A stretch of DNA of 22,792 bases from Priapulus caudatus (lineage: Eukaryota; Priapulida; Priapulimorpha; Priapulimorphida; Priapulidae), in the NCBI RefSeq assembly GCF_000485595.1, contig NW_014578921.1:20088-42879 (forward strand), given 5' to 3'. Below, one piece after another: positions 1 to 21,342 of this stretch (positions are counted from its first letter, which is position 1; every line of letters starts with the position of its first letter). The notes beneath the pieces are model-generated. The model ran no database searches and was not told where the DNA came from. It saw nothing but the letters and a program-made list of their open reading frames with translations. Made by a program: the position numbers and the translations under genes.

Positions 1-1063
1 GGGACAGAATAGCCATTAAAAAATAAACTAGTAGTCTGTCGGATCGTGATCGCAGTGACACCTACGGGACCGAATAGTAATTAAAAAAAATGAACTCTCG
101 GAGTCTGCTGGACTGCGATCACAGCGCTGGACAGACGAGGCGACACCTACGGGACAGAATAGCCATTAAAAAATAAACTAGTAGTCTGTCGGATCGTGAT
201 CGCAGTGACATCTACGGGACCGAAAAGTAATTAGATAACATAAACTCTCGGAGTGCCGGCTTGAATCTGCGATTACTGCGCGACGGACAGATCGAGGCGA
301 CACCTACGGGACCGAATAGTAATTAAAAAAAAAAGAACTCTCGGAGTCTGCTGGACTGCGATTACAGCGCGACGGACAGCGCACACAGCAGAGGCGACAC
401 CTACGGGACAGAATAGCCATTAAAAAATAAACTAGTAGTCTGTGGAAGCGTGATCGCAGTGACACTACGGACCGGAATAGTAATTAAAAAAACATGAACT
501 CACTCCGAGTTCTGCTGACTGCGATCGACGCGCGGCGTGGACAGTACGAGGCGACACCTACGTGGACTGATAGTGAATTAAAAAAAAAGAATCTCTCGGA
601 GTCCGCTGGACTGCGATCAGCGGCGAACGGACAGGACGAGGCGATCCTATCGGACTGATAGTAATGTAAAAATAAACTAGTAGTGTCCCTGTCGGGAGTG
701 ATCGCAGTGACACCTACGGGACCGAATAGTAATTAAAAAAAATGAACTCTCGGAGTCTGCTGGACTGCGATCACAGCGCTGGACAGACGAGCGACACTAC
801 GGGACAGAATAGCAATTAAAAAAAAAAAAAGAATCTCGGAGTCTGCTGGACTGCGATCACAGCGCGACGGACAGACGAGGCGACACCTACGGGACTGAAT
901 AGTAATTAAAAAATAAACTAGTAGTCTGTCGGAACGTGATCGCAGTGACACCTACGGGACTGAATAGTAATTAAAAAATAAACTGGTAGACTGTTGGATT
1001 GTGATCGCAGTGACACCTACGGGACTGAATAGTAATTTAAAAAATGAACTCGCATCAGCCGAA
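1..1063. repeat. Tandem array of two alternating units (~62 and ~87 bp) carrying an exon-7 splice acceptor
   Basis: About 13-14 copies of a motif reading CCTACGGGAC(A/C/T)GAATAG recur at 60-90 bp spacing. A short unit with AATAAACTAGTAGTCTGT alternates loosely with a longer unit with GAACTCTCGGAGTCTGCTGG. Read on the minus strand, every unit contains ATTCNGTCCCGTAG followed by GTGTC, the same bases that form the splice acceptor and first codons of exon 7 at 5491-5509. The longer unit continues with exon-like sequence for about 30 bases. The array starts about 130 bp downstream of the exon 6 donor, so it fills intron 6 as far as the window edge. Many single-base indels between 430 and 700 look like consensus noise. 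Confidence 0.9.
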
Positions 1064-1884: not shown

Positions 1885-3185
1885 TATTTCGCAGCAGGTT
1901 GCGACCGCGATCCGCGGCCGTAGTTTTCAGACTTCGCCGGCAGTATCGCGCGGGTCGTAGTTTTCAGACTTCGCCGGCAGTATCGCGCGGGTCGTAGTTT
2001 TCAGACTTCGCCGGCAGTATCGCGCGGACCGTAGTTTTCAGACTTCGCCGGCAGTATCGGCGCGGCCGTAGTTTTCAGACTTAGCCGGCAGTCATCGCGG
2101 CGGGTCGTAGTTTTAGAACTTGGCCGGCAGTATATGCGCGGGCCGTAGTTTGCCAGACTGTTAGCCGGCAGTATCGCGCGGGTCGTAGTTTTTCAGACCT
2201 TTGCCGGCATAAGCGCGGGCCGTAGCTTTTGCAGAGCGTTTGCCGGCAGTATAGCGGCGGGCCGTAGTTTTCAGACTTTCGGCCGGCAGTATAGCGCGGT
2301 GTAGTTTTCAGACTAGCCGCAGTATGCGGCGCGAGGTCCGTGAGTTTCAAAAGACTGTTGCCGCATTATACCGCGCGGCGCCGTATTTTCAGACCTCGCC
2401 GGCAGATCGCGTGAGTCAGTAGCTTTTTCACAGACTTCGGCCGGGCAGTGATCGCGCGGCGTAGTTTCAGGACATCGCGGCAGTAATCGCCGGGGCCGTA
2501 GTTTTCAGACTGACGCCGGCAGTATCGCGGCGGCGCCGTAGTTTTCAGACTTCGCCGGCAGTATCGCGCGGGCCGTAGTTTTCAGACTTCGCCGGCAGTA
2601 TCGCGCGGGCCGTAGTTTTCAGACTTCGCCGGCAGTATCGCGCGGGACCGTAGTTTTCAGACTTCGCCGGCGTATCGCGCGGGTCGTAGTTTTCAGACTT
2701 CGCCGGCAGTACGCGCGGTCTAGTTTTCAGACTTCGCCGGCAGTATCGCGCGGGTCGTAGTTTTCAGACTTCGTCCGCAGTAAATCGCGCCGGGTCGTAA
2801 GTTTTCAGCGCCTTGCGCGGAGTATCGCACGGGCGTAGTTTCCAAGACTTCTCGCCGGTAGTATATGCGGCGGGTCCGTAGGTTTTCAGGACTTCGCCGG
2901 CAGTACGCGCGGCGCCGTAGTTTTCAGACTTCCGCCGTAGTCTTGCGGGCGGGGTCGCGCTAAGTTTTCAACTTCGGCTGGCAGTATCGCGCGACCGAAG
3001 TTTCAGACCCTTTGCCTGCAGTATCGGGGTCGTGAGTTTCAGACTTCGCTCGGCAAGTATCGCCCGGACAGTAGTTTTGAAGACTAGACGTTCGCCCAAG
3101 CAGTATCGCGCGGGCCCGTAGTTTTCAGGACTTCTGCAGACCGCGGCCGTAGTTTTCAGACATCGCGGCAGTATCGCGCGGTCCA
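1885..3185. repeat. ~37-bp GC-rich minisatellite, about 35 copies, next to the exon 5 donor
   Basis: The consensus unit combines CGTAGTTTTCAGACTTCG and CCGGCAGTATCGCGCGGG. Copies at 1915-2060 and 2540-2760 are nearly identical, whereas 2090-2480 and 2770-3180 are full of one-base insertions and deletions. That pattern suggests patchy consensus quality more than ancient divergence. The array ends about 15-20 bp from the exon 5 donor. Unlike other arrays here I see no splice site or exon sequence in the unit. The CG-rich units make the array very CpG-dense. Confidence 0.93.
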
Positions 3186-3199
3186 TGTGGTTTACTTAC

Positions 3200-3289
3200 T
3201 GCAGTAGTGGTGTGAGATTCCCTCGTTAGACGTACGTATCTCTGCAACTCTGGGGCTGTCTCCTGCGATGTACGCGCAACGCCCCAAGC
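3200..3289 (-). CDS. Importin-alpha exon 5 (ARM repeat with WALGNIAGDS), broken by small indels
   Basis: On the minus strand the nucleotides follow the codons for A-WALGNIAGDSPECRDYVL and then NEGILTPLLQ, the importin-alpha segment that follows EDVQEQ. The reading frame is broken by several single-base gains and losses (for example CATCGCAGGAGACAGCCCCAG and GAATCTCACACC), so no continuous peptide results. The ends are intact: acceptor TGTGCAG just before 3289 and a good donor GTAAGT at 3199-3194. The exon ends on two bases of a glutamine codon, which exon 6 completes. Length is 90 nt against 89 expected. The flanking exons have open frames and the noisy 37-bp array begins beside it, so consensus error is more likely than gene decay, although a real pseudo-exon cannot be excluded. 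Confidence 0.85.
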
Positions 3290-3469
3290 CTGCACATACG
3301 CATAGCCACAAGCAGATGATGCGTTAATACTCAGGGGCTGTAACGAATGACCTAGGTCACGAATACGATACGTAATCACGATCTTATCATGCCGAATACG
3401 AACTAATTCATCAGAATACGGAATACTCAGCTTTGTTGACGCTGTAAAAACTACAAGGGAATAAAAGAT

Positions 3470-3760: not shown

Positions 3761-3892
3761 CTGTTCTTGCACGTCCTCGAACTCTGAACTGAGGAGACAG
3801 ATGAAGATGGGAACGGCTCCTGCCTCAATGACGATGCGCGTCTGTAGTGACGTGCCGGAAGCGATGTTAGTCAGCGCCCACGCCGCCTCAAA
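3761..3892 (-). CDS. Importin-alpha exon 4 (ARM repeat, [13 protein letters not shown] ... EFEDVQEQ)
   Basis: This 132-nt, 44-codon exon begins [13 protein letters not shown], continues through [14 protein letters not shown], and ends [10 protein letters not shown]. That is the highly conserved first part of the importin-alpha ARM domain. The WALTN tryptophan and asparagine belong to the major NLS-binding site, so this exon carries central cargo-binding residues. The acceptor is ATTATTACAG just before 3892 and the donor is GTAGAC from 3760. The frame is fully open, and both ends are phase 0, agreeing with exon 3 upstream. A cysteine (IFICLL) stands where most family members have a charged or polar residue. 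Its first ~25 bases and acceptor are copied several times in the upstream intron. Confidence 0.96.
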
Positions 3893-4056
3893 CTGTAATA
3901 ATAACAATAATAATAATAATAATAACAATACATTAGCACCCACGCAGCCTCAAACTGTAATAATAACAATAACAATAACAACAATAATAATAACAACATA
4001 CATTAGCACCCACGCAGCCTCAAACTGTAATAATAACAATAACAATAACAACAAGA
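3893..4056. repeat. AAT/AAC microsatellite array containing copies of the exon 4 acceptor
   Basis: Two extra copies of the exon 4 edge lie at 3930-3956 and 4000-4027. Each reads, on the minus strand, TATTACAG then TTTGAGGCTGCGTGGGTGCT, against TTTGAGGCGGCGTGGGCGCT in the true exon. They are separated by (TTATTG)n-type sequence. Each copy ends in AAT followed by GTATGT or GTATTG, which resembles a splice donor, so each could in principle act as a ~23-nt micro-exon. The array resumes at 4431-4530 after a retroelement-like interruption. Confidence 0.9.
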
Positions 4057-4200
4057 GCAATCGGAGATAGCAAACCTCCGCCACAGCGTAACAGTATTGC
4101 TGGTACAAAAAAATAATTCCTGGATCCAGATCTGGATCCGGATCACCACCAAAATCTAATTGATTTGGTTTTTTTAGCCCACCAGTTTTTTCTTTGATGA
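4057..4200 (-). mobile_element. Retrotransposon-type 3' tail, minus orientation
   Basis: On the minus strand this reads CTGTGGCGGAGGTTTGCTAT then CTCCGATTGC, followed directly by the TTGTTATTG microsatellite. GGCGGAGGT...CTCCGA followed by a simple-repeat tail is a pattern I recall from the 3' ends of RTE-type non-LTR elements and derived SINEs in marine invertebrates. The plus strand also holds GGATCCAGATCTGGATCC, an 18-bp perfect palindrome (4121-4138), and GGATCACCACCAAAATCTAA, which occurs again at 4265. No coding region is present, so this is at most a truncated end. The family assignment is from memory of the pattern. Confidence 0.5.
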
Positions 4201-4244
4201 ATTTTGAATGCATCCGAAGTCTTCCCCACAAAAAAAGAAATTAA

Positions 4245-4430
4245 AGAAAAAAATCCTGGGTCCGGATCACCACTAAAATCTAATCGATTGGTTTCTTGGC
4301 CCAAAACCAACCCGTCCAAAAATTCATCAAATCGGTCCGTTCACTTGTTTGAGCTATATCCTGTTGACAGACAAACCAATAAACAAAATAACGTGGGCGA
4401 AAACAACCTCCTTGGTGGAGGTAATTAATA
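4245..4430 (+). mobile_element. Retrotransposon-type 3' tail, plus orientation
   Basis: The order is GGTCCGGATCACCACTAAAA, TTGGCCCAAAACCAACCCGT, CCAAAAATTCATCAAATCGG, a GACAGACAAACCAATAAAC stretch and finally CCTCCTTGGTGGAGGTAATT. This arrangement is typical of the truncated 3' end of RTE-like non-LTR elements (or SINEs using that tail). It ends exactly where the AAT/AAC microsatellite array resumes. With the opposite-strand tail at 4057-4200 it forms a head-to-head insertion that splits the exon-edge array. There is no open reading frame of the element. Confidence 0.6.
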
Positions 4431-4530
4431 ACAACATGTCAGCACCCACACTGCTTCAATCTGTAACAATAATAATAACAATAACAATAACAATAACAAC
4501 ACGTCAGCACCCATGGCACTTCAAACTAAA
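4431..4530. repeat. Distal part of the exon 4 acceptor array
   Basis: Two more diverged copies of the exon 4 edge lie at 4436-4467 (minus strand GTTACAG then ATTGAAGCAGTGTGGGTGCT) and 4501-4528 (TTTTAG then TTTGAAGTGCCATGGGTGCT). They are spaced by (AAC/AAT)n. Greater divergence than in the copies next to exon 4 suggests older units or relaxed homogenisation at the far end of the array. Confidence 0.85.
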
Positions 4531-4535
4531 ATAAC

Positions 4536-4632
4536 ATGCACGCACGCACATACCCACGCACGCACGCACGCACACACACTCACGCACGCGCACGACGCAC
4601 GCACACACACACGCACGCTCTCACGCACGCAT
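4536..4632. repeat. CACG/CA low-complexity tract at the exon 3 donor
   Basis: Alternating CACGCACG and CACACA sequence runs to within about 8 bp of the exon 3 donor. The intron therefore reads GTGAGGGATGCGTGCGTGAG and continues as GT/GTGC repeats in the sense direction. Alternating purine-pyrimidine sequence of this kind can adopt Z-DNA. Confidence 0.9.
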
Positions 4633-5417: not shown

Positions 5418-5504
5418 TAATTACTATTCGGTCCCGTAGGTGTCACTGCGATCACGATCCGACAGACTACTAGTTTATATTTTAATTGCTATTCTGTCCC
5501 GTAG
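5418..5504. repeat. Inverted copy of the window-start array, ending in the exon 7 acceptor
   Basis: TTACTATTCGGTCCCGTAGG is followed by TGTCACTGCGATCACGATCC, GACAGACTACTAGTTTAT and TTTAATTGCTATTCTGTCCC. This is the reverse complement of one and a half short units from 1-1063. The last unit runs without a break into exon 7, so the functional acceptor is itself the terminal repeat unit. The left edge of the repeat, near 5418, is a candidate rearrangement or misjoin point. Confidence 0.9.
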
Positions 5505-5668
5505 GTGTCGCCGTGTCTGCCCGTGCTGTCGCGGCTGCTGTTTCACAGTGACAGGGACGTGCTGGCAGACGTCTGCTGGGCGCTGTCCTATCTCTCCGAC
5601 GGACCCAACGAGAAAATCCAGGCCGTTATCGACGCCGGGGTGTGCCGCCGCCTCGTGGAACTGCTCAT
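5505..5668 (+). CDS. Importin-alpha exon 7 ([13 protein letters not shown] ... VCRRLVELL), plus strand
   Basis: This 164-nt exon encodes [36 protein letters not shown], then [18 protein letters not shown]. That is the conserved importin-alpha ARM region immediately after NPPPEFAK. The acceptor is CTGTCCCGTAG (ending 5504). The donor is CAT|GTGAGT from 5669, leaving AT to be completed as ATG by exon 8. The frame is open and conservation is very high, including WALSYLSDG and the RRLVELLM helix. It follows exon 6 in protein order and its GTG start fits the exon 6 phase, yet it lies on the opposite strand, inside the intron between exons 2 and 3. It could be a piece of the same gene misplaced by assembly, or part of an inverted duplicate. 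Confidence 0.95.
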
Positions 5669-5787
5669 GTGAGTAGTATTCTAGGCTCTCAGGCTGTTAC
5701 GTTTGCTGTTGCTGCCCCCTCGTTCCCCCACACGCTTAATTATTATTATTATTTGATTATTATTATTAATATTCTCTTTATTGCATG

Positions 5788-5972
5788 TACCGTATATGAT
5801 CGCGTAATAACCGCGGGCGCCTATAAGCCGCACCTCAATTTGAATCGGGTAACCAAGTATTGCGCCTAGTATATTTCCCCTCACGATATTGCGCACTTAT
5901 AAACCGCAGAGCAAATACAGGGTTGAAATCTGAGGCCAAATTTGCGGTTATTACGCGGGTATATATACGGTA
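5788..5972. mobile_element. TA-flanked MITE (~181 bp, mariner-like)
   Basis: CCGTATATGATCGCGTAATA with ACCGC at the left mirrors GCGGTTATTACGCGGG and TATATATACGG at the right, giving imperfect terminal inverted repeats of about 28 bp. A TA dinucleotide flanks each end (5788-5789 and 5971-5972), as expected for Tc1/mariner-type insertion. There is no coding capacity, so it would be non-autonomous. It lies in the intron between exons 7 and 8. Confidence 0.8.
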
Positions 5973-6505
5973 ATTCAAATACAAATACATGTACTGAGGA
6001 CGGTCTTTTTCATGGAGAAAAAATCTGATAGATGCAATAGTGTTGAGCAGTTAATATAATAAAATTTCTGAGTAATACAGTACAAATCAGCACTGTAAAA
6101 CATTTTTTTTTTAAACATAATAAAAAAGAAAATGGTTAGGCAGTGCCCGAAATGTCGATGTCTGATGATCAGTGTTCAATATATTTTCCCCTACGGCAGA
6201 GGATTTGATCGTAAAATGGTTCATTAATTTTCGTTGTTCAATTCACTGCACTATGCGATGGTAATTTAGGTTTTCCGACATTTATATAAACTTCCTGCAA
6301 TCTCTCTAGTTTTATACTTTAGTAGCTAGCCCCAAAATACGTTCAACAAGCTGTTAGGGGGAAAAAAAGCATTGTTAATTGCATCTGTTCGTTAAATCAA
6401 TGTAGTCGGGGAGTTAATTCAGCCCCTAATGTAGTTCTGATAATTGCATTATTTATAAAAACATAATCTGTTAATCGCATTATTTGCAAAAACAGCAACC
6501 GTTAA

Positions 6506-6854
6506 AGGGATTACGTCACGAATGTTCTATGGTAAAATTTGTTTAAAAAAAATTTCCATTTTTATACATTAAAAGTAAGAACTAACGGGACTAAACAAAT
6601 CGTCAAATTCTTACCTGATAAGATTGTTTCTCAACTAGTTAAAAATCCAAAAAACCTGGACGATTTGAATTAATGTTCTCAACATTAATTGCTTGCTATG
6701 GGCTATGTATGAGTCACGAGTGTATGTTTACATCGAACAATATAGTAAAATAAGAAGTATAATGCAGCAATTTAACCATAAAATGTGAACAGAATTACTT
6801 ATATTTTGTGAAAAAGTGGAAATATTTTTTACTATTTACGGTGACGTAATCACT
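6506..6854. mobile_element. TTAA-flanked MITE, copy 1 (~349 bp)
   Basis: The left end AGGGATTACGTCAC and right end GTGACGTAATCACT form 14-bp terminal inverted repeats with one mismatch. TTAA lies directly outside each (6502-6505 and 6855-6858). TTAA target duplications are typical of piggyBac-type (and Kolobok) elements. The interior is AT-rich and non-coding. It is closely matched by 7743-8088 in the same orientation, including ACTAACGGGACTAAA and ATTGCTTGCTATGGGCTATG. Confidence 0.88.
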
Positions 6855-6985
6855 TTAATTGTGTTTGTGCTGTAAATCTACCCAAGTACGTAACGTGCGT
6901 GTGATCACCCCCCCCCCTCCTCCCCCTTCAACGAGCGGTGCTGCCTGCGCCACCTGGCGGTGATTGTTTACGTTTGCTTGCGCAG

Positions 6986-7064
6986 GCACAACCAGCAGTG
7001 CGTTGTCTCGGCTGCGCTGAGGGCCGTCGGAAACATCGTCACCGGCGACGACGTGCAGACGCAG
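6986..7064 (+). CDS. Importin-alpha exon 8 (HNQQCVVSAALRAVGNIVTGDD), plus strand
   Basis: This 79-nt exon encodes HNQQCVVSAALRAVGN then IVTGDDVQTQ, matching the importin-alpha ARM segment that follows RRLVELLM. Its first G completes the methionine codon left by exon 7, which confirms that the two exons belong to one transcript on the plus strand. The acceptor is TTTGCTTGCGCAG (ending 6985) and the donor is GTGAGC from 7065. NQQCVVSAAL replaces the NDYKVVSPAL usual in vertebrates, so this is a less conserved stretch or a diverged copy. A 31-bp tandem array begins inside the donor. The following exon (VILNCS...) is not found downstream on this strand before the single N at 7261 or beyond. Confidence 0.94.
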
Positions 7065-7065
7065 G

Positions 7066-7260
7066 TGAGCGACCAATCAGAGCGTGTGATGGCTAGATAG
7101 CAGCCAATCAGAGCGTGCGATTGCTAGATAGCGGCAAATCAGAGCATGTGATGGCTAGATAGCGGCCAATCAGAGCGTGCGGCGGCTAGATAGCGGCCAA
7201 TCAGAGCGTGTGATGGCTAGATAGCGGCCAATCAGAGCGTGCGATTGCTAGATAGCGGCC
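7066..7260. repeat. 31-bp tandem array with CCAAT boxes, starting in the exon 8 donor
   Basis: Six copies of a 31-bp unit, GCGGCCAATCAGAGCGTG plus (TGATG/CGATT)GCTAGATA, run from the donor itself (GTGAGCGACCAATCAGAGCG) to an isolated N at 7261. Copies differ mainly in the four bases after GCGTG. Five of the six units have the core (A/G/C)CCAATCAGAG, a close match to the NF-Y CCAAT-box consensus. The array ends abruptly at the N, so its true length is unknown. Confidence 0.93.
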
Positions 7261-7325
7261 NGGTTGAATGTTATTGATCGCGGCTACCAGATATTGAAAT
7301 GTATCATGTATCATAATTAACACAT

Positions 7326-9679: not shown

Positions 9680-10134
9680 TATGAAACAATAAGCTCTAAA
9701 TTACTTTTCCCAAATAATCTAGTTTTCCGCTGAACTTCTGAGCAAGGTTTCAATGATCAAACGTTTTCTCAAATGCGACGAACACGCACATACGTACCAT
9801 CCTCCCACAGTAACACCCTCAATTCATCTTCCCAAACCCTCGTTTTAGCAGAATTTCTCCGGCTCTAATCTTACATACTGACAAATTTGATTCACGCACA
9901 TTACACGCGACACCGCCCCACCTTATGACAATCATAACCGAATCTAATTTCCAAAATCCTCAGACAAATTCCCGAGTTAAGTTCCAATTTGAAATCTCAC
10001 CAATACGACCCACGCACGTTATGCGTTTCGGCCTTAAAACCTTTTGACAGTAAAAACCAAAAATAATTTTCGCAAATCCTCAGCCGACTTTCCTGACAGT
10101 TACACCTAGTTAGGTTCCAATCTGAAATTCTCAC
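9680..10134. repeat. Diverged ~115-bp tandem repeat ending at the exon 2 donor
   Basis: Four weakly similar units can be followed by recurring landmarks: CCAAA(A/C)TCCTC or similar, then TTCCAAT(T/C)TGAAAT(T)CTCAC, then CACGCAC(A/G)TTA(C/T)(A)CGCG. The last unit runs into the exon 2 donor: the landmark GGTTCCAATCTGAAATTCTC followed by ACC is the sense donor GGTGAGAATTTCAG, and the previous unit has AGTTCCAATTTGAAATCTCA followed by CC near 9985. Divergence is high, so the exact period and copy number need an alignment. Confidence 0.55.
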
Positions 10135-10234
10135 CTTTCGACAATAATTTCCTAAATTTCTGGGTTGCCTCGAGCTGCGCCTCAGACTGGTCGCTGTAGA
10201 GTGCCTGAATCATTTCCTGCGTGATCAGCATCGT
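10135..10234 (-). CDS. Importin-alpha exon 2 (TMLITQEMIQALYSD ... KFRKLLSK)
   Basis: This 100-nt exon encodes TMLITQEMIQALYSDQSE, then AQLEATQKFRKLLSK, and one base (G) of the next codon. It matches the importin-alpha linker between the IBB domain and the first ARM repeats, where KPNA1/5/6 members read VITREMVEMLFSD...ATTQKFRKLLSKE. QKFRKLLSK again supports the KPNA1/5/6 clade. The acceptor is CCCGTTTACACAG just before 10234 and the donor is GTGAGA from 10134. Phase agrees with exons 1 and 3. The frame is open. Upstream, in the sense direction, lies a ~750-bp CACG/CA tract. Confidence 0.94.
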
Positions 10235-10299
10235 CTGTGTAAACGGGAGAAAGAACGATGACAGACGCACGCAGCCGCGACGTGTCAAGGCGACGCCTT

Positions 10300-11045
10300 G
10301 ACCATCTCTGTAAGACACGCACGCACGCACTAACCACGCAACGCACAACACACACGCGGCGCGCGACGGGCACGATCACACACAGACAGCGCGCACGCAC
10401 GCACCATCAGCACGCACACACACGCGCGCAGCAAATCGGCACATCACACACAGACACCCGGCAGGTCGACTCGCACGCCACACGCACGCACGCTCGACAC
10501 GCACGGCACACACACACGCGCGCGCAGCCACATCCACACACAGACACGCGCACGCGACGCACGACGCACAGCACGCATCACACAGGTGGGGCGGGCGCAC
10601 AACTACTTACACGACGCACGCACACATCGCGACGCAACACACACGCACACAAACACGCACGCACATGCTCCACGACCACCCAACCTGCACGCAGCATCCA
10701 CAGCACACACAGCGCGCACCACGCACGCCACACACACACAGCCCACGTAACACAGCACGGTACCCACAACAGACCACACATGCACACACAGCAAGGGCAC
10801 GCACGCATGCCACGCCGACGACACGCACGGCACGCACCCGGCACGCGACATACAGCACGCACACACCAACACACACACACAGCACAATCAGCACACACAC
10901 ACACCACACAACAGACACATCACACGCACGCACACTGCCACGCACTATCCACACTCACACACGCAAGCACATAACACATACACACACACGCAACGCACTT
11001 CCACAGCACACACAGCGCGCAAGCACACGGCGCGCACGGGCACGC
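10300..11045. repeat. ~750-bp degenerate CACG/CA low-complexity tract
   Basis: Almost the whole stretch is built from ACAC, CGCAC and GCACG words on the plus strand with very little T. It is not a perfect microsatellite: words such as CACGCACGGCACGC and ACACACACACAG alternate without a fixed period. Long open frames exist in several registers only because stop codons need T; their products are Thr/His/Arg-rich or Cys/Val-rich and are not credible genes. Confidence 0.95.
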
Positions 11046-11617
11046 AGACGAGAACTGGTGCTATATGTATAGGCAAGGCCCGACACTACTTTTTTTTTGG
11101 CAGTGGCCCCGATCGGGCCACCAAAATCATCTGATTTCAATTTTTGGTGGCCGCGAAAAATGAAAATCTGGTGTTCCGAAAAAATACATAGAAAAACATT
11201 ATAAATCTTTATCAATCTCGCTATTGTATATGATTTGAAAGTGGCCGTCGACACTTGCACAAGCTTTAAACATAACGCGCCACACAAGGCACACACTGAC
11301 ATTGATGATTGAGTGCGCATACATTGAATTAATCATCCACGGCTCAAATTTTCAACCAAATGTTGCATACCATTTTCTAAAAACTTTCACTCATTTATTT
11401 TCTAAACACGGCGCGTGCACATGCTATCGACGGGCAGGTTCAGACGTTCAAAGAAATCAAAGTCACAAGAAGCATGCAAATATTAAAAACAGTAAACTTA
11501 ATAAAACAATCAAGTCTTTTATGTTAAATAAAACATATACATTTAATCTTCATGATTAAAAGTTGCAGCTTTGAAACGTAAAAATAAAAATATGCACGAT
11601 TTAATAGATTAAAGAGC
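11046..11617. other. Intron 1 unique sequence before an assembly gap
   Basis: AT-rich sequence with no recognised exon. A palindrome-like GGCCCCGATCGGGCC lies near 11104-11118 and resembles GGGCCGATCGGCCC at 8527, which may reflect a shared dispersed element. Confidence 0.45.
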
Positions 11618-11901
11618 NNNNNNNNNNNNNNNNNNNNNNNNNNNNNNNNNNNNNNNNNNNNNNNNNNNNNNNNNNNNNNNNNNNNNNNNNNNNNNNNNNN
11701 NNNNNNNNNNNNNNNNNNNNNNNNNNNNNNNNNNNNNNNNNNNNNNNNNNNNNNNNNNNNNNNNNNNNNNNNNNNNNNNNNNNNNNNNNNNNNNNNNNNN
11801 NNNNNNNNNNNNNNNNNNNNNNNNNNNNNNNNNNNNNNNNNNNNNNNNNNNNNNNNNNNNNNNNNNNNNNNNNNNNNNNNNNNNNNNNNNNNNNNNNNNN
11901 N
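11618..11901. other. Assembly gap (284 Ns)
   Basis: A run of N separates intron 1 from CCT-repeat sequence just downstream, in the sense direction, of the exon 1 donor. The missing part is probably more of the CCT/exon-edge array seen at 13760-14460. Confidence 0.98.
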
Positions 11902-11953
11902 CCTCCTCCTCCTCCTCCTCCTCCTCCTCCTCCCTCCCTCCTCTCTAACTCAC

Positions 11954-12210
11954 CTGTACCTGCGATGCGGGTGCCTGCTGCGAGAATTCATCGTCATGCA
12001 TGGACGACGTCACCTCTCCCTCGTCGTCGGCGGCATCGTCGTCTCCCGGCGCCATCGCGTGCATGCGCCGCTTGAACAGCTGCTCCTCGCGTTTCTGCTT
12101 CCGCAGCTGAAGCCCTTCCTCCTCGCGTCGCCGACGAAGCTCCGATGCGTCGAGCGCCTTGTTCTTGTACTGCCGGTAGCGGCCCGTCGTCGGACTCGTG
12201 CTGGCCATGT
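11954..12210 (-). CDS. Importin-alpha exon 1, start codon and IBB domain
   Basis: The ATG at 12208 opens [20 protein letters not shown], then [19 protein letters not shown] and REEQLFKRR, an acidic linker [10 protein letters not shown], and ends QQAPASQVQ. The arginine/lysine-rich RRRREEEG...[13 protein letters not shown] block is the importin-beta-binding (IBB) domain. It docks to importin-beta and also folds back on the NLS groove as an autoinhibitor. The start is preceded by TATACAG-AC, an acceptor two bases upstream of the ATG, so at least one untranslated exon must lie upstream. The donor GTGAGT is at 11953. The frame is intact and uses complete codons at the donor. The first ~50 bases and the last ~60 bases of this exon are multiplied in the flanking arrays. 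Confidence 0.95.
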
Positions 12211-13746
12211 CTGTATACAGAGAGAGAGAGAGAGGTTAGTGTGCGAGAGAGAAGGGTAGGGAGGGAGGGAGGGAGGGAGGGAGGGAGGGAGGGAGGAGGG
12301 AGGAGGGAGGGAGGGAGGCCTTTGTTCTGTACTGCCGGTAGCGCCTGAGGTCGACTCCGTGCCTGGCCATGTTGTATAAGAGAGAGAGAGGAGAGGGTTA
12401 GTGGTCGGAGAGGAGGGTAGATGGGGGGAGGAGGAGGCAGGAGGGAGGAGGGAGGAGGGAGGAGGGAGGAGGTGGCCCTTGGTTTCCTTCCGTACCCTGC
12501 CGGTAGCGGCCGTAGTCGGACTCGTGCTGGCAATGTCTGTATCAGAAGAGAGAGAGAAGAGGGTTAGTGTGCGAGATAGAGGGTAAAGGGAGGGAGGGGA
12601 AGGAGGGAGAGGGAGGGAGGGAGGGAGGGAGGGAGGAGTAGGGAGGAGAGGGAGGGTGAGCGGGAGGGAGGGAGGGCAGGAGGGAGGAGCGCCTTGATTC
12701 TTTGTACTGCCGGCTAGCGCGCCCGTAGTCGACTCGTGCTGCCATGTCTGTATACAGAGAGAGAGGAGGTTAGTGTGTCGAGAGAGAGAGGTAGAGGAGA
12801 GAGGAGGGAGGAAGAGGGAGGGTGAGAGAGGAAGGGAGGGAAGGAGGGAGGGAAGGAGGGCCCTTGTTCTGTACCGCGTAAGCGCCGCGTCGTCGGATCG
12901 TCGTGCTGATGTTGTACTACAGAGAGAGAGAGAGAGGGTTTAAGTGTGCTTAAGAGAGGGGTAGAGGAGGGAGGGAGGGAGGGGAGGGAGGAGTAAGGAG
13001 GAGGCCTTGTTCTTTACTGGCCGAGGGCTCCGTTGCGTCGGACTCGTCTGGCCATGTCTGTACTATCAGAGAAGAGAAGGGTTTGTGTGCGGAGAAAAGA
13101 AGGGCTAGAGGGAGGAGGGGGAGGGAGGGAGGGAGGAGGGGGAGGAGGGGCAGGGCCTTGTTCTTGTACTGCCGGTAGGCCGTAGTCCGGACGTCGTGCG
13201 GCCATGTCTGTATCAGAGAGAGAGAGGGTTAGTGGTGCGAGAGAGAAGGTAGAGGGAGGGAGGGAGGGAGGGAGGGAGGGGGAAGGCAGGAGAGGAGGAG
13301 GGAGGCCTTGTGCTTGTACTTGGCGCTAGCGGGCCCGTACGTACGACTCATGCTTGGCCATGGTCTGTATACAGAAGAGATGAGAGAGGGTTAGTGTGCG
13401 AAGACGATAAGGGTCACACAACACACAACAAACGGGAGGGAGGGAGGAGGGAGGAAGGATGGGAGAGGTGGGAGAGGGCCATTGTTTTTCGTACTTGCCG
13501 TAAGCGGCATCGCGACTCGTGCTCGGGCATAGTCTGTACACAGTTAGAGAGGAGAGAGAGGGTTACGTTTTTTGTGGAGAGAGGAGACGGTAGAGGGAGG
13601 GAGGGAGGAGGAGGGGAGAGGGAGGGAAGGGCCTTGTTCTTGACGCCGGTATGCGCCCGTAGTCGACTCGTGCTGGCCATGTCTGTATACAACAGAGAGA
13701 GAGGTTAGGTGCGAGAGAGAGAGGTAGAGGAGGGGAGGAGGGGAGA
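12211..13746. repeat. Tandem array of exon 1 start modules, proximal block (~9 units)
   Basis: Units of about 150-170 bp recur, each carrying on the plus strand CTTGTTCTTGTACTGCCGGT, AGCGGCCCGTAGTCGGACTC, GTGCTGGCCATGTCTGTATA, CAGAGAGAGAG, GGTTAGTGTGCGAGAGAG and a (GGGA)n tract. In the gene's direction this is pyrimidine tract, CACTAACC (branch-point-like), (CT)n, TATACAG acceptor, ATG and the first ~17 codons. Copies lie near 12366, 12520, 12738, 12905, 13050, 13198, 13353, 13520 and 13672. Many small indels break the codons. The block stops at an isolated N (13747). Confidence 0.93.
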
Positions 13747-13759
13747 NAAGATTCTTTCT

Positions 13760-14460
13760 CCCCTCCGCTCCCTCCATCGCGTCCTCCCCACGGCAATCCG
13801 TCCTCCTCTCCTGCCTACTCCTCCTCCTCCTCCTCCCCTCCTTCCTCCTCCTGCCTCTCCCTCCTCCTCCTCTCCCTCCTCCCTCTCCTCCTCCTCCTCT
13901 CCTCGCTCCCTCCTCTCAACTCACGCTGCATACGCGTGCGATGCGGGCGCCTGCTGGCGCCAGAATTCATCGTCCATGCATGCCGTACGACTGTCACGCC
14001 TCTCCTCCTCTCTCCCTCCTCCCCTCCCTCCTCCTCCTCCTCCTCCTCCGTGCCTGCCTCCTCCCTCCTACCCTCTCCTCACCTCCCCTCCATCTCTAAA
14101 CGTCTGTACTTGCGAAATGCCGGGCGCCTGCTGCGAGAAATTCATCGTCCATGCATGGACCGACGCTCAGGGCGGGGCCGGTCCCTGCGCTCTTCCTCCC
14201 TCTCTGCCTCCTCCATCCTCCTGCCTCCATACGCCTCCTCTCCTCCCTCCTCTCCTCGCTCCCCTCCTCCTCCTCCTCCTCTCCTCCTCCTCCATCACTC
14301 ACTCACATCACATCCTCCTTCCTCCTCCCTCTCCTCCTCTCCTCTCCCTTTCCTGCCTCCTCTTCCCTCCTCCTCCTCCTCTCCTCCTCCCCTCCCCCTC
14401 CTCCTCCGTCTCCTCCTCGCTCGCTCCCTGCGCTCCTCCTCCTCCCCTCCCTCTCTCTAC
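13760..14460. repeat. CCT-rich array with copies of the exon 1 3' end
   Basis: (CTCCTC)n sequence is interrupted by copies of the last part of exon 1: 13921-13990 (GATGCGGGCGCCTGCTGG, then AGAATTCATCGTCCATGCAT) and 14100-14165 (GCCGGGCGCCTGCTGCGAG, then TTCATCGTCCATGCATGG). Each corresponds to the ...[13 protein letters not shown]... end of exon 1, and the first keeps an ACTCAC donor complement. In the sense direction these copies follow the second full exon copy, so this side multiplies the donor edge while the other side multiplies the acceptor edge. Long Ser/Pro-rich ORFs here are products of the repeat. Confidence 0.88.
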
Positions 14461-14464
14461 TCAC

Positions 14465-14729
14465 CTGTACCTTGGCGATGCGGGTGCCTGCTGCGAGAAT
14501 TCGTCGTCATGCATGACGGACGGTACTCTCCCTCGTCGTCGCGGCCGTCGTCGTTCCCGGCGCCATCGCGTCATGCGCCGCTTGAACAGCTGCTCCTCGC
14601 TTTTTGCTCTACCGCATCTGCTGAAACCGCTTCTCCTCCGTCGCCGACGGAGACGCTCACGACGCGTCGAGCGCTTTGTTTTCGTACTGCCGTAGCTGAC
14701 CGTAGTCGGACTCACGGTGCTGGCCATGT
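14465..14729 (-). pseudogene. Second, degraded copy of importin-alpha exon 1
   Basis: The full exon recurs with the acceptor side (CATGTCTTGTACATACAG), the ATG at 14727, an RRERLRRRRRR-like stretch, [10 protein letters not shown], and the end [14 protein letters not shown], followed by the ACTCAC donor complement at 14459-14464. Several one- and two-base indels shift the frame between these islands, so it cannot encode the intact IBB domain as written. It could be a tandem exon duplicate that is decaying, an uncollapsed second haplotype joined at the isolated N, or an intact duplicate with consensus errors. Confidence 0.85.
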
Positions 14730-16535
14730 CTTGTACATACAGAAAGAGAGAGGGTTAGTGGTACGCGAGATAGGGGTAGAGGAGGGAGGGAGGAGGGAGG
14801 GAGGAAGGGGGAGGAGGGAGGGAGGGCTGTTCTGTTACTGCCGGGTATGCGGCTGTAGTCGACTCGTGCTGGCCATGGTCTGTATACAGAGAGAGAGAGA
14901 GAGGGTTAGTGTGCGAGAGAGAGGGGTAGAGGGAGGGAGGAGGGAGGGAGGAGGAGGGAGGGAGGAGACGAAGGGAGGGAGGGCCTTGTTTTCTTCGTTA
15001 CTGCCGGTAGCGGCCCGTATCGGACTCGTGCTGGCCATGTCTGTATACAGAGAGAGAGAGAGAGAGGGTTAGTGTGGCGAGATGAGGGGTAAAAGGGAGG
15101 CAGGGGAAGGAGGGAGGAGGGAGGGAGGGAGGGGGAGGGAGGGACAGTAGGGAGGGAGCGGAGGGTGAGAGGAGGGAGGGAGGGAAGGAGGAGGGAGCGC
15201 GCTTCGATTCTTGTACTGCCGGTAGCGGCAGTAGTGCCGACTCGTGCTGGCGCATGTCTTGTATAGACAGAGAGAGACGTAGGCGGTTAGTGTGCGAGAG
15301 AGAGAGGTAGAGGGAGAGAGGGAGGGAGGAAGGAGGGAGGGTGAGAGGAGGAAGGGAGGGAGGGAGGGAGGAGGGAGGGCCTCTGTCTCTTGTACTGGCC
15401 GGTCAAGCGGCGCGTCGCTCGGACCTCGGTGCTCGGCAGTCTGTATACAGAGAGAGAGCAGAGAGGGTTAGTAGTGCTAGAGAGCGGGCAGCCAACGCGG
15501 CAGGGAGGAGGGGAGGGAGCGAGGCCAGGAAGGCCGAGGGAGGGCCTTGTTCCTTCACGTACTGCCGTACCCGCGGCCCGTCGTCCGGACCTCGTGCGCT
15601 GGCCATCGTGTCTTGTAAGAGAGAGAGAGGGTTAGTGTGCGAGAGAGAAGCGGTAGAGGGCAGGGACGGGAGGGAGGGAGGCGGAGGGAGGGAGGAGGGG
15701 AGGGGAGGGAGGCCTTGTTCTTGTCTGCCGGTAGCAAGCCCGTAGTCGGACCTCGTCTGGCCATGTCTGTATCGAGAGAGAAGAGGGTTAGTGTGCGAGA
15801 GAGAAGGGTAGAGGGAGGGGAGGGAGGGAGGGGAGGGAGGGAGGGGGAGGAGCGCGCGAGGGAGGGGAGCCCCTTGTTCTTGTAACTGCCGGTAAGCGGC
15901 CGCGTAGTCGGACTCATGCTGGCAATGTTGTATACAAGAGCAGAGAGAGAGGGTTAGTGTGGCGAGAGAGGAAGGCGTAGGAGGGCAGGGAGGAGGGAGG
16001 AGGGAGGACAGGAGGGAGAGGGAGGGAGGGCCTTAGTTCTCTGTACTGCCGAAGCGGCGCATCGTCGACATCCGTGCTGGCCCATGTCTCGTATACCAGA
16101 GAGAGAGAGAGGGATTAGTGTGCCGAGAGAGCGAGGTCAGAGAGGGAGGGAGGACCGAGGCGAGGAGGGAGGGAGGGCCTTCGTTCTTGTATGCGTAGCG
16201 GCCGTAGTCGGATCCGTGCTGGGCATCGTCTGTATACACAGAGAGAGAGGGCTTACGTGCTGCGAGAGAGAGAGGTAGCAAGGGAGGAGGGAGGGGGTGA
16301 GGGGGAGGGAGGAGGAGGGCCTTGATTCTGACTGCGTAGCGCCCCGTAATCGGGCCGTGCTGGCCTGGTTTATAACAGAGAGGAAGGGTTTACGCTGTGA
16401 ACGAGAAGAGGGGTAGAGCGAAGGCGAGGGAGGGAGGGAGGGCGGAGGGAGGAGGGAGGGAGGAAGGGGAGGCCATGTTCCTGTACTGCCGTAGCGCCCG
16501 TCGTCGACTCAATGGCTGGCCATCGTCTGTATACC
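14730..16535. repeat. Tandem array of exon 1 start modules, distal block (~11-12 units)
   Basis: The same module as in 12211-13746 continues, with the ATG/acceptor region near 14868, 15030, 15252, 15435, 15605, 15760, 15925, 16083, 16225, 16360 and 16515. (GGGA)n tracts separate the units. The outermost copy lacks the AGAGAG tract and passes directly from CATCGTCTGTATACCTGACC into unique sequence at about 16530. That marks the end of the array and perhaps the original intron border. Confidence 0.93.
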
Positions 16536-17214
16536 TGACCCCATCCCGCACAGTCGCGGACTTTTCTGATCTCTAACCTCCCGTAATCTTGTGAAACTGG
16601 TAAATTCTGCTACGAGTGGCTGCCCACGACCGCGCACCGATTTTCGTTAATGAAATAACATGACTCGTCGCGATTTTTATGTTCCTACTTGTTAACAGCT
16701 TTTGTTGTCAATTTTTACGAAAGGACCACTTCCATACTCCATACCGGAAAAAAATGCAGAAAAAGATTGTGGCATGATCCCCCACCCCCGGACCCCCAAC
16801 ACTTTGGTAAAACACAAATGTCCCAGTCACCCAATACTCCCACATTCTCAATCCTAGAGCTAATACTCTGGTCGTAAGTAGACTTGAGCCAAATGCGGTC
16901 ACCAGCTGTCAAAAAATTGCTAAAAAAGCTTCCTGTACAACAAACACATTGTAGTAAGTCCGGGAAAACATCAATTATAAGTTGTAATATCATATACAGT
17001 GTTTCCCCCCCCCCCGACCTACATCACCGCCCGCTCCCCGGAGCCCCGCCCCCCGTCCTGCACGTCCCGATGACAGCGGGAGGCGCGGCCGCCTCGCTCC
17101 AAATTCTGTCTCAGTCGCAGCACACCAGAAATTTGTCCAAAACACACAGCACCGTCTGCTGACGAAAATCAGTGTTCTTCATAGAACAGTGCTCATAATA
17201 CACCAAAATAGCTT
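16536..17214. promoter_or_regulatory. Region upstream of the arrays with a ~100-bp CpG-dense patch, possible promoter
   Basis: This is sequence upstream of importin-alpha in the gene's direction. Between about 17020 and 17100 there is GC-rich, CpG-rich sequence with CCCGCCCC/GGGGCGGGG-type boxes (GAGCCCCGCCCCCCGTCC) and the palindrome GAGGCGGCCGCGCCTC-like core. It could contain the promoter or first untranslated exon of importin-alpha, but I see no defined first exon or donor. CAGTGTTTCCCCCCCCCC at about 16998 resembles the end of a hAT-type element; no partner end was found. Confidence 0.25.
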
Positions 17215-17700
17215 AGAATGCACCAAATTGCACCAAATTGCACCAAATGTGTTATGTTCATCTCAATGTTAAGTTATGAGAGGGTCTGGGCTATAGCTGC
17301 CGGAATTCTGGTTTAGTTAGGAAATGATAATTATACGCATTAGTATCGTTCTGGCATGCGTAACAGCAGTAGTATGTAACAGGCATCAGGATATACAAGT
17401 GTAGACGCAATCGTAATCGTTATCGTCATGCGTCGGTGTTCGTACACGGTTGCCGGTGGAGTAATAGCTTCAAAGAGACAGATTTCGTTGGTGCGGCATA
17501 CATCTTCAATTTCGTTGTCAACATCCTAGCAGGGCTTGATCTCGTATAAGTACTACATACGTACGTATATGTAATAGCACTTCGCCTACTATTGTCTATT
17601 GTACTAGTACTATTGTAGCAGAGTGCGTGTATACGTACGCTATTGGTAGTATTACGAAAGCCAGACCCCTCTCATAGAGATGAATAACACATTTGCACTA
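17215..17700. mobile_element. MITE with ~40-bp imperfect terminal inverted repeats
   Basis: The left end (17238-17292) has GCACCAAATGTGTTATGTTC, ATCTCAA and TATGAGAGGGTCTGGGCT. The right end (17659-17699) reads AGCCAGACCCCTCTCATAGA then GATGAATAACACATTTGCAC. After reverse complement the two align over about 40 bp, with an extra stretch in the left arm. An 11-bp repeat, CACCAAATTG with one extra base, occurs three times just outside and inside the left end. The interior (~370 bp) is non-coding. Confidence 0.75.
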
Positions 17701-18930
17701 AGACTTGCAGTTATAGTGATATATACTGTTATATTAATAGTAAATGTGTTTTTTATGGAAACATACATTCGAAAACTTACTTATCTAGTGGTATCATAAC
17801 AAACAAACATTTACTGGCGTTTTGTTCTAATTGTTTTGAGGTTTTCTTCCAGTCAACAGGAAATCGAAGCCAGCCAAATGCAGCAGGCGGGCTAATTCTT
17901 CGCTATGTATGCGTTTGGGGAATTTTTTTGCTGGCCCGCCTGGGGGCCGGAGTAGCGCGAATTCTCTGACATGTATGCGAAATTCAGTGATCATATATAT
18001 ATAGATGCATCATGCCAGAGCTTTGATTGTTAATTCGCATTGTTCGCTCTTGATTGTTCGCGTGGGACCATTGTTTTTTTTTCAGCTCGCATAGCGCAGT
18101 CGCATAGCATAGAGGAGTGTCAAGAAACTGATCGATCAAAGGTCGGTGGTGAACGCTCTTTCAAACGACGCTTCCGTGTCGTTTGTGGTCTAGAATTCAA
18201 CTACAATCTCTACCTATCAACTCTAATCTAACCTAATAAATAAACATTAACAACACAGTTTTGGTTCGTCCAAGTGCTACCACAACTTTATGCGTAACAC
18301 AAGCACAGCTGTGATTGGTCGGGTCGACACGCATTGCACATCACGCATCCTATACTATAAATTTCGAGACGTCAGGAATTTTGGGCGCTAAACACCGGGT
18401 AACGCGGCGCGGTTATACATGTTTGCTGTGTGCATGTTGTCAAGAGCAGTATTAACGAAAGGAGAGCGTACAACGGTGAAATCTGAACCATGTTGCAGTA
18501 TTCGGTCAGAAATTAATTAAAGTTTCCCCATTTTATTTTGACATTCTTTGCAGTATTATTGATCAGCTCGCTCCTATTCCTTGTTACTATAAACAAACCG
18601 CATGTCGCTACGATGCCTCTACGCTGAGATAATGAGGGCGGTTGAAAATCTGGTACTTTTCGAACGAAAAACTGACGTCGTCAACTCAAAAAATCGTCAA
18701 AATAAACGGGCGAAAGTTTCTTATTCGACTAATATCTGCAGGGCATGGCTTTCAGCATTTATCGTTGTAGGGGGCGCTCTCTTCTATTATACGCCTTGAC
18801 TGTCGTGGTATAGCTGCGTTCACCGACGAGAATCACGCCTCGCTGGTTTCGTACTTATCTGGTGCCTGAATTCGGCTGACAATACCGTGCTCAAACACAA
18901 CCGGCAGCATTCACACGAGAAGTCGAGGCT
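17701..18930. other. Intergenic-type sequence, no gene recognised
   Basis: A few short ORFs occur, none with a recognisable motif. A T-rich stretch ending TTTTTTTTCAG at 18076-18086 and AATAAATAAA at 18234 could belong to an untranslated exon, but nothing else supports it. Confidence 0.35.
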
Positions 18931-18942
18931 TAGGCTGCTAGG

Positions 18943-19024
18943 TATATATATAGACTGGTACTCGGTCGACAGTTCGACACGCTACACTAATGGTCGTGTA
19001 CAAAAACAGGTGGTACCAGTCTAG
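18943..19024 (+). promoter_or_regulatory. Candidate TATA/Inr promoter with a short first exon and donor
   Basis: TATATATATA (18943-18952) lies 28 bp upstream of an initiator-like GACAGTTC whose A is at 18971, a normal metazoan TATA-to-start distance. An ATG follows at 18990, giving MVVYKNRWYQS before AG|GTAAGT at 19025, a near-perfect splice donor. Together these resemble a small first coding exon of an unknown plus-strand gene. No downstream exon is identifiable with confidence. An acceptor-like GTTTCAG at 19106-19112 joins in frame to about 30 codons before a stop. Confidence 0.3.
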
Positions 19025-19110
19025 GTAAGTGCGCGACTACAAGTAGAAGAGGCCTTCGAATTGCGTTCCTAAAAAGCAATAAGCAAGCACTGCGTGGTGC
19101 CGGAATGTTT

Positions 19111-19135
19111 CAGCGCGGAACGTGATTCCGCGCTG
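19111..19135. repeat. Perfect 10-bp hairpin
   Basis: CAGCGCGGAA and TTCCGCGCTG flank a five-base loop (CGTGA). The GC-rich stem directly follows an acceptor-like pyrimidine/AG sequence. Its role is unknown. Confidence 0.7.
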
Positions 19136-19822
19136 GAATCAAGCGCTCGTATTTCAGGACGGGTACTTGCTAGCGCGTATAATCTTGAATATTTTTACCG
19201 TTGAAACGCTCAGTACGGACTGTCGGTGTAGTCCACCGATTGTTTCATTCGCATTGCTTTTTTTGCATGTCAAATCTTGTCAGAGCGCATGTTGCTGTCT
19301 GTGCAAAGAACAACTGCAAGGGACGGGTGGAAACAGAAAAATATCATTATCGTCCGAACGGGCAAGTGCAGTTTCAAGCTACTTGCCCGGGGGCGAATTT
19401 TGGTTGCCCCGGGCAAGCGGGTTTGTCGCGCCCTGTATGGTGATCAATATATTATGAACGCATGGTTGTTCCCATGCTTTTAACGTATGTCAGGTCGGAC
19501 ATGCCTTCAAAACTGAAGCTAATTTGCGACAGCTTACAAATCTAACGTGCCTTGATATCGACACGCCTGAATTTCTAACTGTCTTTACTTTTGACAATCG
19601 CAACACAGTCATGCCGTGCTCTCACGCCTCGATGTTGACGTAGACCTCCAAAATGATCGAGTCTACCTGTGTATTAGGGCCACGCACGACACGCGAATGT
19701 ATTTCAATTAGCGATCGGGAACGCATTGCCCTATCGCCCAATATGAACTTCGTGAAATTCCACTGAAATTCCTGGGGGGAAACCTGGAAGGAGCCCACGA
19801 CTTACCACCTCTACAGCTATTT

Positions 19823-20021
19823 GGGTGATACTCCATTAGGAGTGTTCCCAACTTTAATGTCATTAATGGTCATAATAACATATATATATATAATATGGTC
19901 ATATATTAATTAGTTTGTGGTTTAAAGGCATTTTGGTTAGGGTTAGGGTTAGGGTTATCAATCATTAATCATTAATCATTAATGATATCAAAATTGGGAA
20001 CACTCCTAATGGAGCGTTAGC
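19823..20021. mobile_element. MITE (~199 bp) carrying a telomere-like tract
   Basis: Perfect 21-bp inverted repeats lie at 19831-19851 (CTCCATTAGGAGTGTTCCCA plus A) and 19994-20014. CAGCTATTT occurs immediately outside the element on both sides (19814-19822 and 20022-20030), a possible 9-bp target duplication. The interior contains GGTTAGGGTTAGGGTTAGGG plus TTA (19935-19957) and ATCATTA repeats. It has no coding capacity. The superfamily is uncertain. Confidence 0.85.
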
Positions 20022-20030
20022 CAGCTATTT

Positions 20031-20674
20031 AGTTGACGTTACGACTCAGTCGGTAGTATCAGAACCGTACAGTGTGTTAGCCAGAGACCTGTCTACCCGT
20101 CTTCTGGACGGCCCATTCTTGAATGAGAATCAGATGGATGAAATTTGATAGAGACGGCATGAGGGCAGCCCAATTTTATATATTAATTATTATAAACGCT
20201 GTATAACTGACAACAGTGCTTAAATATAAGAATATAAAATCATATCAGATTCCTGTCTTTTTGGCATTTCACCCTTTAAATTTCCTTCATTTTTAAAAGG
20301 TAAGGCCCTCCCGCCGAGGGTGCTTCGTGCCCACAGCATCCTCGCTTCACTCAGATGGTGAGACACCCCGATTTTTTTCCTGACTAACACCCTGGGACCC
20401 TATAGCCTTGCTTAGCTCTATCTGTATAGCACTTCCCTCTGCCAGAGCTCTACGCAGCAAAGTATAAAGGAACCTGCTAATGGTACGGAAATACTGAAAT
20501 CCAGATCACTAGCGTTGCCACTATTTCAATGTAAATATGGCTGCAATATATTGCTCGTGCATTGATTTGCTTTGGATAAAAGACTCAATTTGGCCAAACT
20601 ACAATAGGGCGAGTGAGATGGCCAACTGAAGCCAATACCTTTCTTTTGTTGACTAGCGCATTTTGTTATTGTAA
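20031..20674. other. Non-coding sequence, no feature recognised
   Basis: No conserved ORF, array or inverted repeat is visible in this stretch. Confidence 0.45.
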
Positions 20675-21342
20675 CATGGGCTACAGTATAGCTAGCTCTA
20701 GTACTATAGCCCACGTACAGTTGCCGCAGGGCTATAAAACATTTTATGCTAGGTTTCGCAACTGCACCTGTTCTCCAAAGCTTCCACGAAAAATCGCTCA
20801 CAAAACGCAAAATGATCAGGCTTTTTAACACTTATCTATAGATCTACATGGACATCACACCTATCTTTTTGAACACTTTCCACAACTTTACACCATGTAT
20901 TTATGCATTTATTCCTCAAAGTCTTAGCACTACTTCCAATTCCGTTTGAAATGATGTGGCGTGCGCACGCGTGACGTCACCGGATATGTAGGCAAAACAC
21001 ATGGCAGCTATGATGCAGCCTATTACATTTCGGGTGACGTCACGCGTGTACACAACATCATTTCAAACGGAATTGGAAGTAGTGCTAAGACTTTGAGGAA
21101 TAAATGCATAAATACATGGTGTAAAGTTGTGGAAAGTGTTCAAAAAGATAGGTGTGATGTCCATGTAGATCTATAGATAAGTGTTAAAAAGCCAGATCAT
21201 TTTGCGTTTTGTGAGCGATTTTTCGTGGAAGCTTTGGAGAACAGACCTGTGCAGTTGCGAAACCTAGCATAATTTATATTCTATAGCCCTGCGGCAACTG
21301 TACGTGGGCTATAGTACTAGAGCTACAGCATAGCCTGCCATG
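20675..21342. mobile_element. Long fold-back element (~315-bp inverted arms, ~25-bp loop)
   Basis: The left arm (20675 to about 20992) is matched in reverse complement by the right arm (about 21018 to 21342). Shared blocks include AGTACTATAGCCCACGTACA, ACCATGTATTTATGCATTTA, CACTACTTCCAATTCCGTTT and CGCGTGACGTCACC next to the centre. The arms are nearly identical apart from a few substitutions and short indels, implying a recent origin. A transcript from either strand would form a ~315-bp hairpin. There is no transposase, so it would be a non-autonomous fold-back, or an inverted duplication of unique sequence. Confidence 0.9.

Follow-up and report, generated by a model that had tools for sequence, protein, structure and literature searches.

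The stretch analysed here comprises 22,792 nucleotides of the priapulid Priapulus caudatus (contig NW_014578921.1, positions 20,088 to 42,879; hereafter the window). Its minus strand carries an importin alpha (alpha-7-like) gene, located by tblastn with the deposited P. caudatus protein P0004. In front of exon 1 of this gene stands a minisatellite whose units cross the intron-exon boundary, an arrangement known from amphioxus under the name of mirages. Exon 1 and its surroundings are laid out as follows, in window coordinates:

11618..11901, no strand: gap of 284 N in intron 1, adjoining exon 1
11954..12210, minus: authentic exon 1 of importin alpha-7-like, clean, with ATG at 12208 and the donor GTGAGT after 11954
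12211..13746, minus: sub-array L, nine units (13683, 13534, 13365, 13208, 13058, 12913, 12748, 12537, 12373), running into exon 1
13747..13747, no strand: single N joining both sub-arrays
13901..14131, minus: two extra copies of the exon-1 3' end and donor (14131-14077 and 13954-13901), donor-side repeats within a GAGG-rich intron
14441..14730, minus: second full exon-1 copy with donor, noisy (donor copy 14491-14441), from alignment and tblastn
14731..16535, minus: sub-array R, 11 units (16527 ... 14880), noisy and long-read-like

The clean exon 1 (12208-11954) matches residues 1-85 of P0004 at 100% by tblastn, and the deposited model starts at the ATG at 12208. Upstream, a 56-nt core on the minus strand (GACATGGCCAGC...AACAAGGC) has 22 copies between 16527 and 12156, each at 1-15 edits. 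None of five shuffled cores gave fewer than 21 edits, and the remaining core matches listed, at 22-26 edits, lie at chance level. These copies comprise 20 partial units and the two full exon-1 copies (14730 and 12211). A unit of sub-array L reads (CCCT)n, CACTAACC, (CT)n, TATACAG and then ACATG with about 17 codons, the copies spanning the exon 1 acceptor from as far as -25 to as far as +25. The units bear out the preliminary description of this DNA, which had seen in each a branch-point-like sequence, a polypyrimidine tract, an AG and an ATG with some 17 codons of importin-alpha exon 1. Exact CACTAAC is present in 13 of the 20 units, exact TATACA inside the last 25 nt in eight, and 15 units have an ATG at their start; the missing motifs look like sequencing noise. 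Spacing between units is 140-217 bp overall. G-quadruplex-type motifs cover 799 of 4324 bases on the plus strand of the exon-1 array, a count made without a shuffle control, and are absent from the minus strand; they could favour instability at exon 1, and no such G-rich tract was seen at exons 4 and 6.

Comparison of the two sub-arrays indicates that the same nine units are present twice, because both unit order and private words agree. Units 3-11 of R match units 1-9 of L in order (an offset of two) with a mean score of 205, and no other offset tried exceeded 165; identity was 0.789 against at most 0.738, and the length correlation was 0.84. None of 20000 permutations reached the score at this offset, and when the longest pair was left out 9 of 50000 did so. 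Counted back from the exon, the spacings are 150, 161, 217, 183, 166, 160, 162, 159 and 142 in the upstream set and 162, 164, 211, 165, 145, 150, 157, 169 and 149 in the downstream set. Paired units also share words of their own, namely CATGAGTC (R4/L2), CTCTCACCCTCCC (R7/L5), and CCCTTT with CCCTACT (R8/L6). The upstream set continues past its exon 1 into intron 1: the block 14730-13748 holds the noisy exon, then donor-side copies and GAGG-rich intron, and ends at the N at 13747. As this overlaps the clean contig, we take the N at the junction to mark an overfilled gap, and the second exon 1 is probably the same exon read again.

The differences within the arrays are largely of the insertion-deletion type. 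The exon part of the 20 units gave 966 matches, 32 mismatches, 87 insertions and 62 deletions against the consensus, and the second exon 1 gave 250, 11, 27 and 11 respectively against the clean one. We infer that this noise came from gap filling with raw long reads, and part of the exon-1 differences may be allelic. The genome therefore probably has a single array, in which about 11 decoy acceptors precede the authentic one. The preliminary description had counted about 22 copies; that many cores are indeed written in the assembly, though not as a single continuous array, and the real number is likely about half. Its suspicion of an assembly product was right in so far as a run of nine units appears a second time in unchanged order, with indel noise and an N at 13747. 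A separate 37-bp minisatellite at 1916-3181, with 29 copies located, has 0-3 edits in its last five copies, 0-2 in five mid-array copies and 3-12 in most others; it shows the same mix of near-exact (downstream end and middle) and noisy stretches as the exon-1 arrays.

The other importin exons and their repeats are arranged as follows:

57..1050, minus: exon 6 acceptor repeats (T-rich tract, GTCCCGTAG, GTGTC...), 13 boundary-crossing copies, partly noisy mid-array
3292-3191, minus: exon 5, noisy, 94% to P0004 by tblastn, differing at the intron-crossing end
3761..3892, minus: authentic exon 4, 100% to P0004 by tblastn over 3895-3761
3893..4536, minus: exon 4 acceptor repeats ((TTATTG)n, TTACAG, TTTGAGGC...), from Tandem Repeats Finder (TRF; 3873-4054) and edge scan
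4741-4640, minus: exon 3, 94% to P0004 by tblastn
5505..5668, plus: exon 6, inverted and displaced from its place in the gene
6986..7064, plus: exon 7, inverted and out of order
7068..7260, plus: 31-bp array directly after the exon 7 donor, from TRF, with weak boundary-spanning similarity
10240-10127, minus: exon 2, 92% to P0004 by tblastn

Exon edges were tested with a 50-base query placed on the edge, a scan of 3 kb on either side and 100 shuffles. At exon 4, three upstream copies scored above the shuffles (4048-4005, 3978-3935 and 4484-4438), reading TTACAG and then TTTGAGGC... or ATTGAAGC...; those at 4048-4005 and 3978-3935 are mutually identical over 44 bases. About 390 bases of unrelated sequence separate the third copy from the next, and a weak fourth lies at 4536-4503 (score 19, shuffle maximum 17). 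At exon 6 the 13 copies were counted by edit distance, 12 of them passing the alignment cut-off; a further copy at 36-1 is truncated by the window edge and another lies at 5418-5444 on the plus strand. The units of exons 1, 4 and 6 all contain simple-sequence tracts: (CCCT)n, (TTATTG)n and T runs. No boundary repeat passed the edge test at importin exons 2, 3, 5 and 5b, where the exon 2 donor has one adjoining weak match (score 20, shuffle maximum 16) that fails it.

The remainder of the gene is less orderly in this assembly. Differences from P0004 in exons 2 and 3 are confined to the ends, where the match overruns the exon. Exons 6 and 7 are inverted between exons 2 and 3 (5498-7261, plus), near a single N at 7261, which is probably a scaffolding error. 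At 714-559 on the minus strand, 52 residues of P0004 match at 100%, and this is exon-6 repeat sequence; residues 257-308 of P0004 (559-714) are translated mirage repeats and not importin. Exon 5 at 3203-3290 (minus) has a noisy frame in the assembly and is annotated accordingly (QAWGVARTSQETAPELQRY...), where the importin of a relative, P0121, has AVWALGNIAGDSPECRDY. This relative's protein is 80% identical to the Priapulus importin over 96% of residues 1-194, is a continuous importin with the expected exon order, and starts eight residues ahead of the methionine aligned with the start at 12208; it probably represents a transcript, and inspection showed no unit-derived sequence in it. P0121 also matches contigs C359 and C178, and weakly C82, elsewhere in the Priapulus genome; we take C359 and C178 to be other importin genes. 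No second copy of the present gene was found in the unmasked sequence of the genome. Its later exons were not found. The flanking sequence (C1795:1-10000 and 10088-20087) is all N.

To look beyond this gene we sampled the genome, the sample being about half masked (103,911 of 200,000 bases N, six of 20 pieces entirely N). From 119,871 unmasked bases, 92 frames with high GC at third codon positions were listed, four with a local repeat. Ten of the 92, picked by eye, were compared with Pfam, and seven matched at E<=0.01: five above the curated cut-off (C2, DSPc, Ig_3 and two kinase) and two below it, of which I-set was kept and Neuro_bHLH dropped.

Several of these loci carry repeats at exon boundaries on either side. 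At locus L026, an immunoglobulin (Ig)-like exon ends in GAGAG/GTAAGG, and the next 268 bases hold six GGTAAG, one GGTAAA, two GGTGAG and one GGAAAG, a single copy of this donor array being long enough for the boundary test. The second Ig exon there has upstream copies with CAA (four) or CAG (one), and a kinase exon has one upstream copy with an intact CAG/GCAAAGGA. A kinase exon of L031 has two upstream copies, one of them identical over 43 bases. Locus L033 is a second importin gene, in which exon C is followed by an array of about 1.2 kb of GCTCGCAAAG/GTACGC with indel noise, containing 21 exact AAAGGT[AG]C beyond the authentic donor. At 2588-3893 of L033, exon B has 13 upstream copies with CTG in place of the exon's CAG and one with CAG, so that most of the exon B decoys are dead, unlike those at importin exons 1, 4 and 6. 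The DUSP exon of L024, flagged for repeats, was rejected as its acceptor copies fail the boundary test. The exons of L026 and L031 share a contig, C350, and could be parts of a single gene or of two. On this contig, similar kinase exon fragments (DMYSKL...FEHTDW) at L026 5475-5795 and L031 8604-8855 stand about 7 kb apart, a pairing which suggests local gene duplication or scrambled assembly.

In a first set, boundary-spanning repeats were found at eight of 27 edges, and one of 14 mid-exon controls gave a match, which was to the second exon-1 copy. A second set had such repeats at four of seven edges against none of four controls. Pooled, this makes 12 of 34 edges against one of 18 controls, all from P. 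caudatus loci; the hits include the weak exon 7 donor, and the L033 matches at 710-850 and 1159-1260 were left out owing to unclear edges. Among edges of exons chosen without knowledge of repeats (the C2 exon of L014, two L026 kinase exons and three L033 exons) the count was four of 12. Edge-duplicating arrays are thus present at several exon edges of this genome, as seen in a small sample.

Mirages have been described in the amphioxus globins BflGb6 and BflGb9, with Adh3 also cited; the BflGb6 units are 150-160 bp, with haplotypes of six and three units, and an aberrantly assembled draft is noted (PMC3087553). The same report uses Adh3 and reverse transcription PCR (RT-PCR) data to suggest undisturbed splicing, and proposes mirages as a source of intron gain (PMC3087553). 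Amphioxus PGBD5 and troponin C also have them (PMC3902484). The Priapulus arrays resemble these accounts in having tandem units across the intron-exon boundary, on acceptor and donor sides and in several genes, in keeping AG or GT in many but not all units, and, at importin exon 1, in a unit close to the 150-160 bp of BflGb6. Tandem duplication, a boundary-spanning unit and partial AG/GT retention were all found here, and both boundary types are affected, as the exon 1 donor copies and the donor arrays of L026 and L033 attest. The host is a priapulid (Ecdysozoa) and not a cephalochordate, although we take the cephalochordate occurrence as a fact of discovery and not as a defining feature. The arrays, known here from DNA only, also differ in copy number, which reaches about 11 at importin exon 1 and at least 21 at the L033 donor, and in that the exon-1 unit carries the initiator ATG. 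The preliminary description knew of no such case; boundary-spanning minisatellites do have the amphioxus precedent, yet none with a start codon in the unit appears in the excerpts of those reports.

Two further systems invite comparison. Turri et al. in 1995 (cited in PMC3618361) reportedly described a minisatellite giving multiple splice donor sites in an interferon-induced transcript. The gene is IFI6 (6-16/G1P3); the units of its minisatellite too are said to be splice sites, but these are donors, whereas the Priapulus units are mostly acceptors with coding sequence. Rogers (1989) and Gao and Lynch (2009) are said to have treated intron gain through tandem duplication of AGGT-containing exon segments, which likewise yields paired splice signals; the Priapulus arrays, by contrast, demonstrate no new intron. 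The titles and abstract openings listed from the open-licence literature gave no report of mirages or boundary minisatellites outside amphioxus, nor of Priapulus minisatellites or tandem repeats with introns and splice sites. As far as these searches show, the kind is known from amphioxus, and the priapulid host, the apparent frequency and the start-codon unit are new.

Taken together, we consider it quite probable that the locus carries a mirage-type minisatellite of about 11 decoy acceptors and the real one, that the array was doubled by an overfilled gap, that it is mostly passive, and that several exon edges of P. caudatus are affected alike. The array would have arisen when the 3' splice site and the ~53 coding bases at the start of importin-alpha exon 1 were duplicated locally in tandem; a smaller array of the exon-1 donor mirrors it. 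Such arrays may originate at exon edges that adjoin a simple-sequence tract, here (CCCT)n, slippage or unequal exchange between tracts copying the edge beside them. Long reads extending the gap from both sides, joined with a single N, would then show the array twice. The authentic exon would be chosen because no edge but its own has the opposite splice site at the distance of an exon; decoy acceptors, having no good donor close downstream, would mostly be ignored, and the amphioxus data suggest that regular splicing survives such arrays.

Several points weigh against this reading. That decoys are ignored is something we infer, and since the nearest one would extend exon 1 from 257 to no more than ~419 bases, some leaky use could occur. 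The dead acceptors (13 CTG at L033, four CAA at L026) mean that not every copy is a working site, and 22 of the 34 edges have no boundary repeat. The edge sample is small and partly chosen; it is non-random because the importin gene came with the finding, repeats had drawn attention to two Ig exons and to the DUSP exon, and the L031 exon was picked after its repeats had been seen. The likeness to amphioxus is structural, with no claim of common descent, and the evidence throughout is assembly sequence.

One alternative is that the decoys are used, transcripts splicing to different units to give optional leaders or N-terminal extensions, or upstream ATGs tuning the importin level. The exact retention, despite noise, of branch-point-like elements (13/20) and ATGs (15/20) would fit this, as would the multiple donors reportedly provided by the IFI6 minisatellite and the earlier start of P0121, from which the N-terminus is not fixed in the group. 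Nevertheless P0004 starts at the 12208 ATG, the probable transcript P0121 runs as a continuous importin free of visible unit-derived sequence, and the amphioxus mirages are reported not to disturb splicing, so we think decoy use unlikely.

The copy number itself could also be explained otherwise. All 22 units might be real, through tandem duplication of a block of ~2.5 kb (array, exon 1 and donor repeats) that left two exon 1s; both halves stand in the assembly, and block duplication would predict their shared unit order. However, indel noise affects both arrays and the second exon 1 but not the neighbouring exon 4 repeats, a single N falls exactly at the junction, and the 37-bp array has the same clean and noisy mixture, and we give this slightly less credence than decoy use. 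The opposite extreme, in which noisy reads were chained through (CCCT)n and the real locus has one acceptor, draws on the noise, gaps and inverted exons 6 and 7 that mark this scaffold as poorly assembled. It seems to us very improbable, as two noisy passes agree in unit order, lengths and private markers, the switch from exon start to CCCT falls at about the same place across units, and both exon 4 and L031 have clean mirages. A single mirage-type array written twice remains our preferred explanation.

Elsewhere in the window, a foldback element at 20768-21244 has 202-nt arms, 97% complementary, with 73 nt between them, and a short internal run of CCCTAA repeats, telomere-like, lies at ~19935-19955.

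With this finding mirages are no longer confined to a single lineage of chordates but reach a distant phylum of protostomes. It also carries a warning, as gap-filled Priapulus assemblies and gene models can hold array sequence as exon, P0004 residues 257-308 being the example. A broader view, which we put forward tentatively and rate at somewhat less than even, is that Priapulus tends genome-wide to duplicate exon edges: a large share of introns would start or end in decoy arrays, with up to two dozen or more sites per edge, splicing would work against massive decoy competition, and arrays would continually feed new introns and exons. On this view mirages would be no oddity of amphioxus; the process behind them would be either convergent or ancient among bilaterians. 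If such arrays are common in Priapulus, they would supply natural series of decoy splice sites, some with identical copies, on which exon recognition and the proposed creation of introns by mirages could be tested directly.

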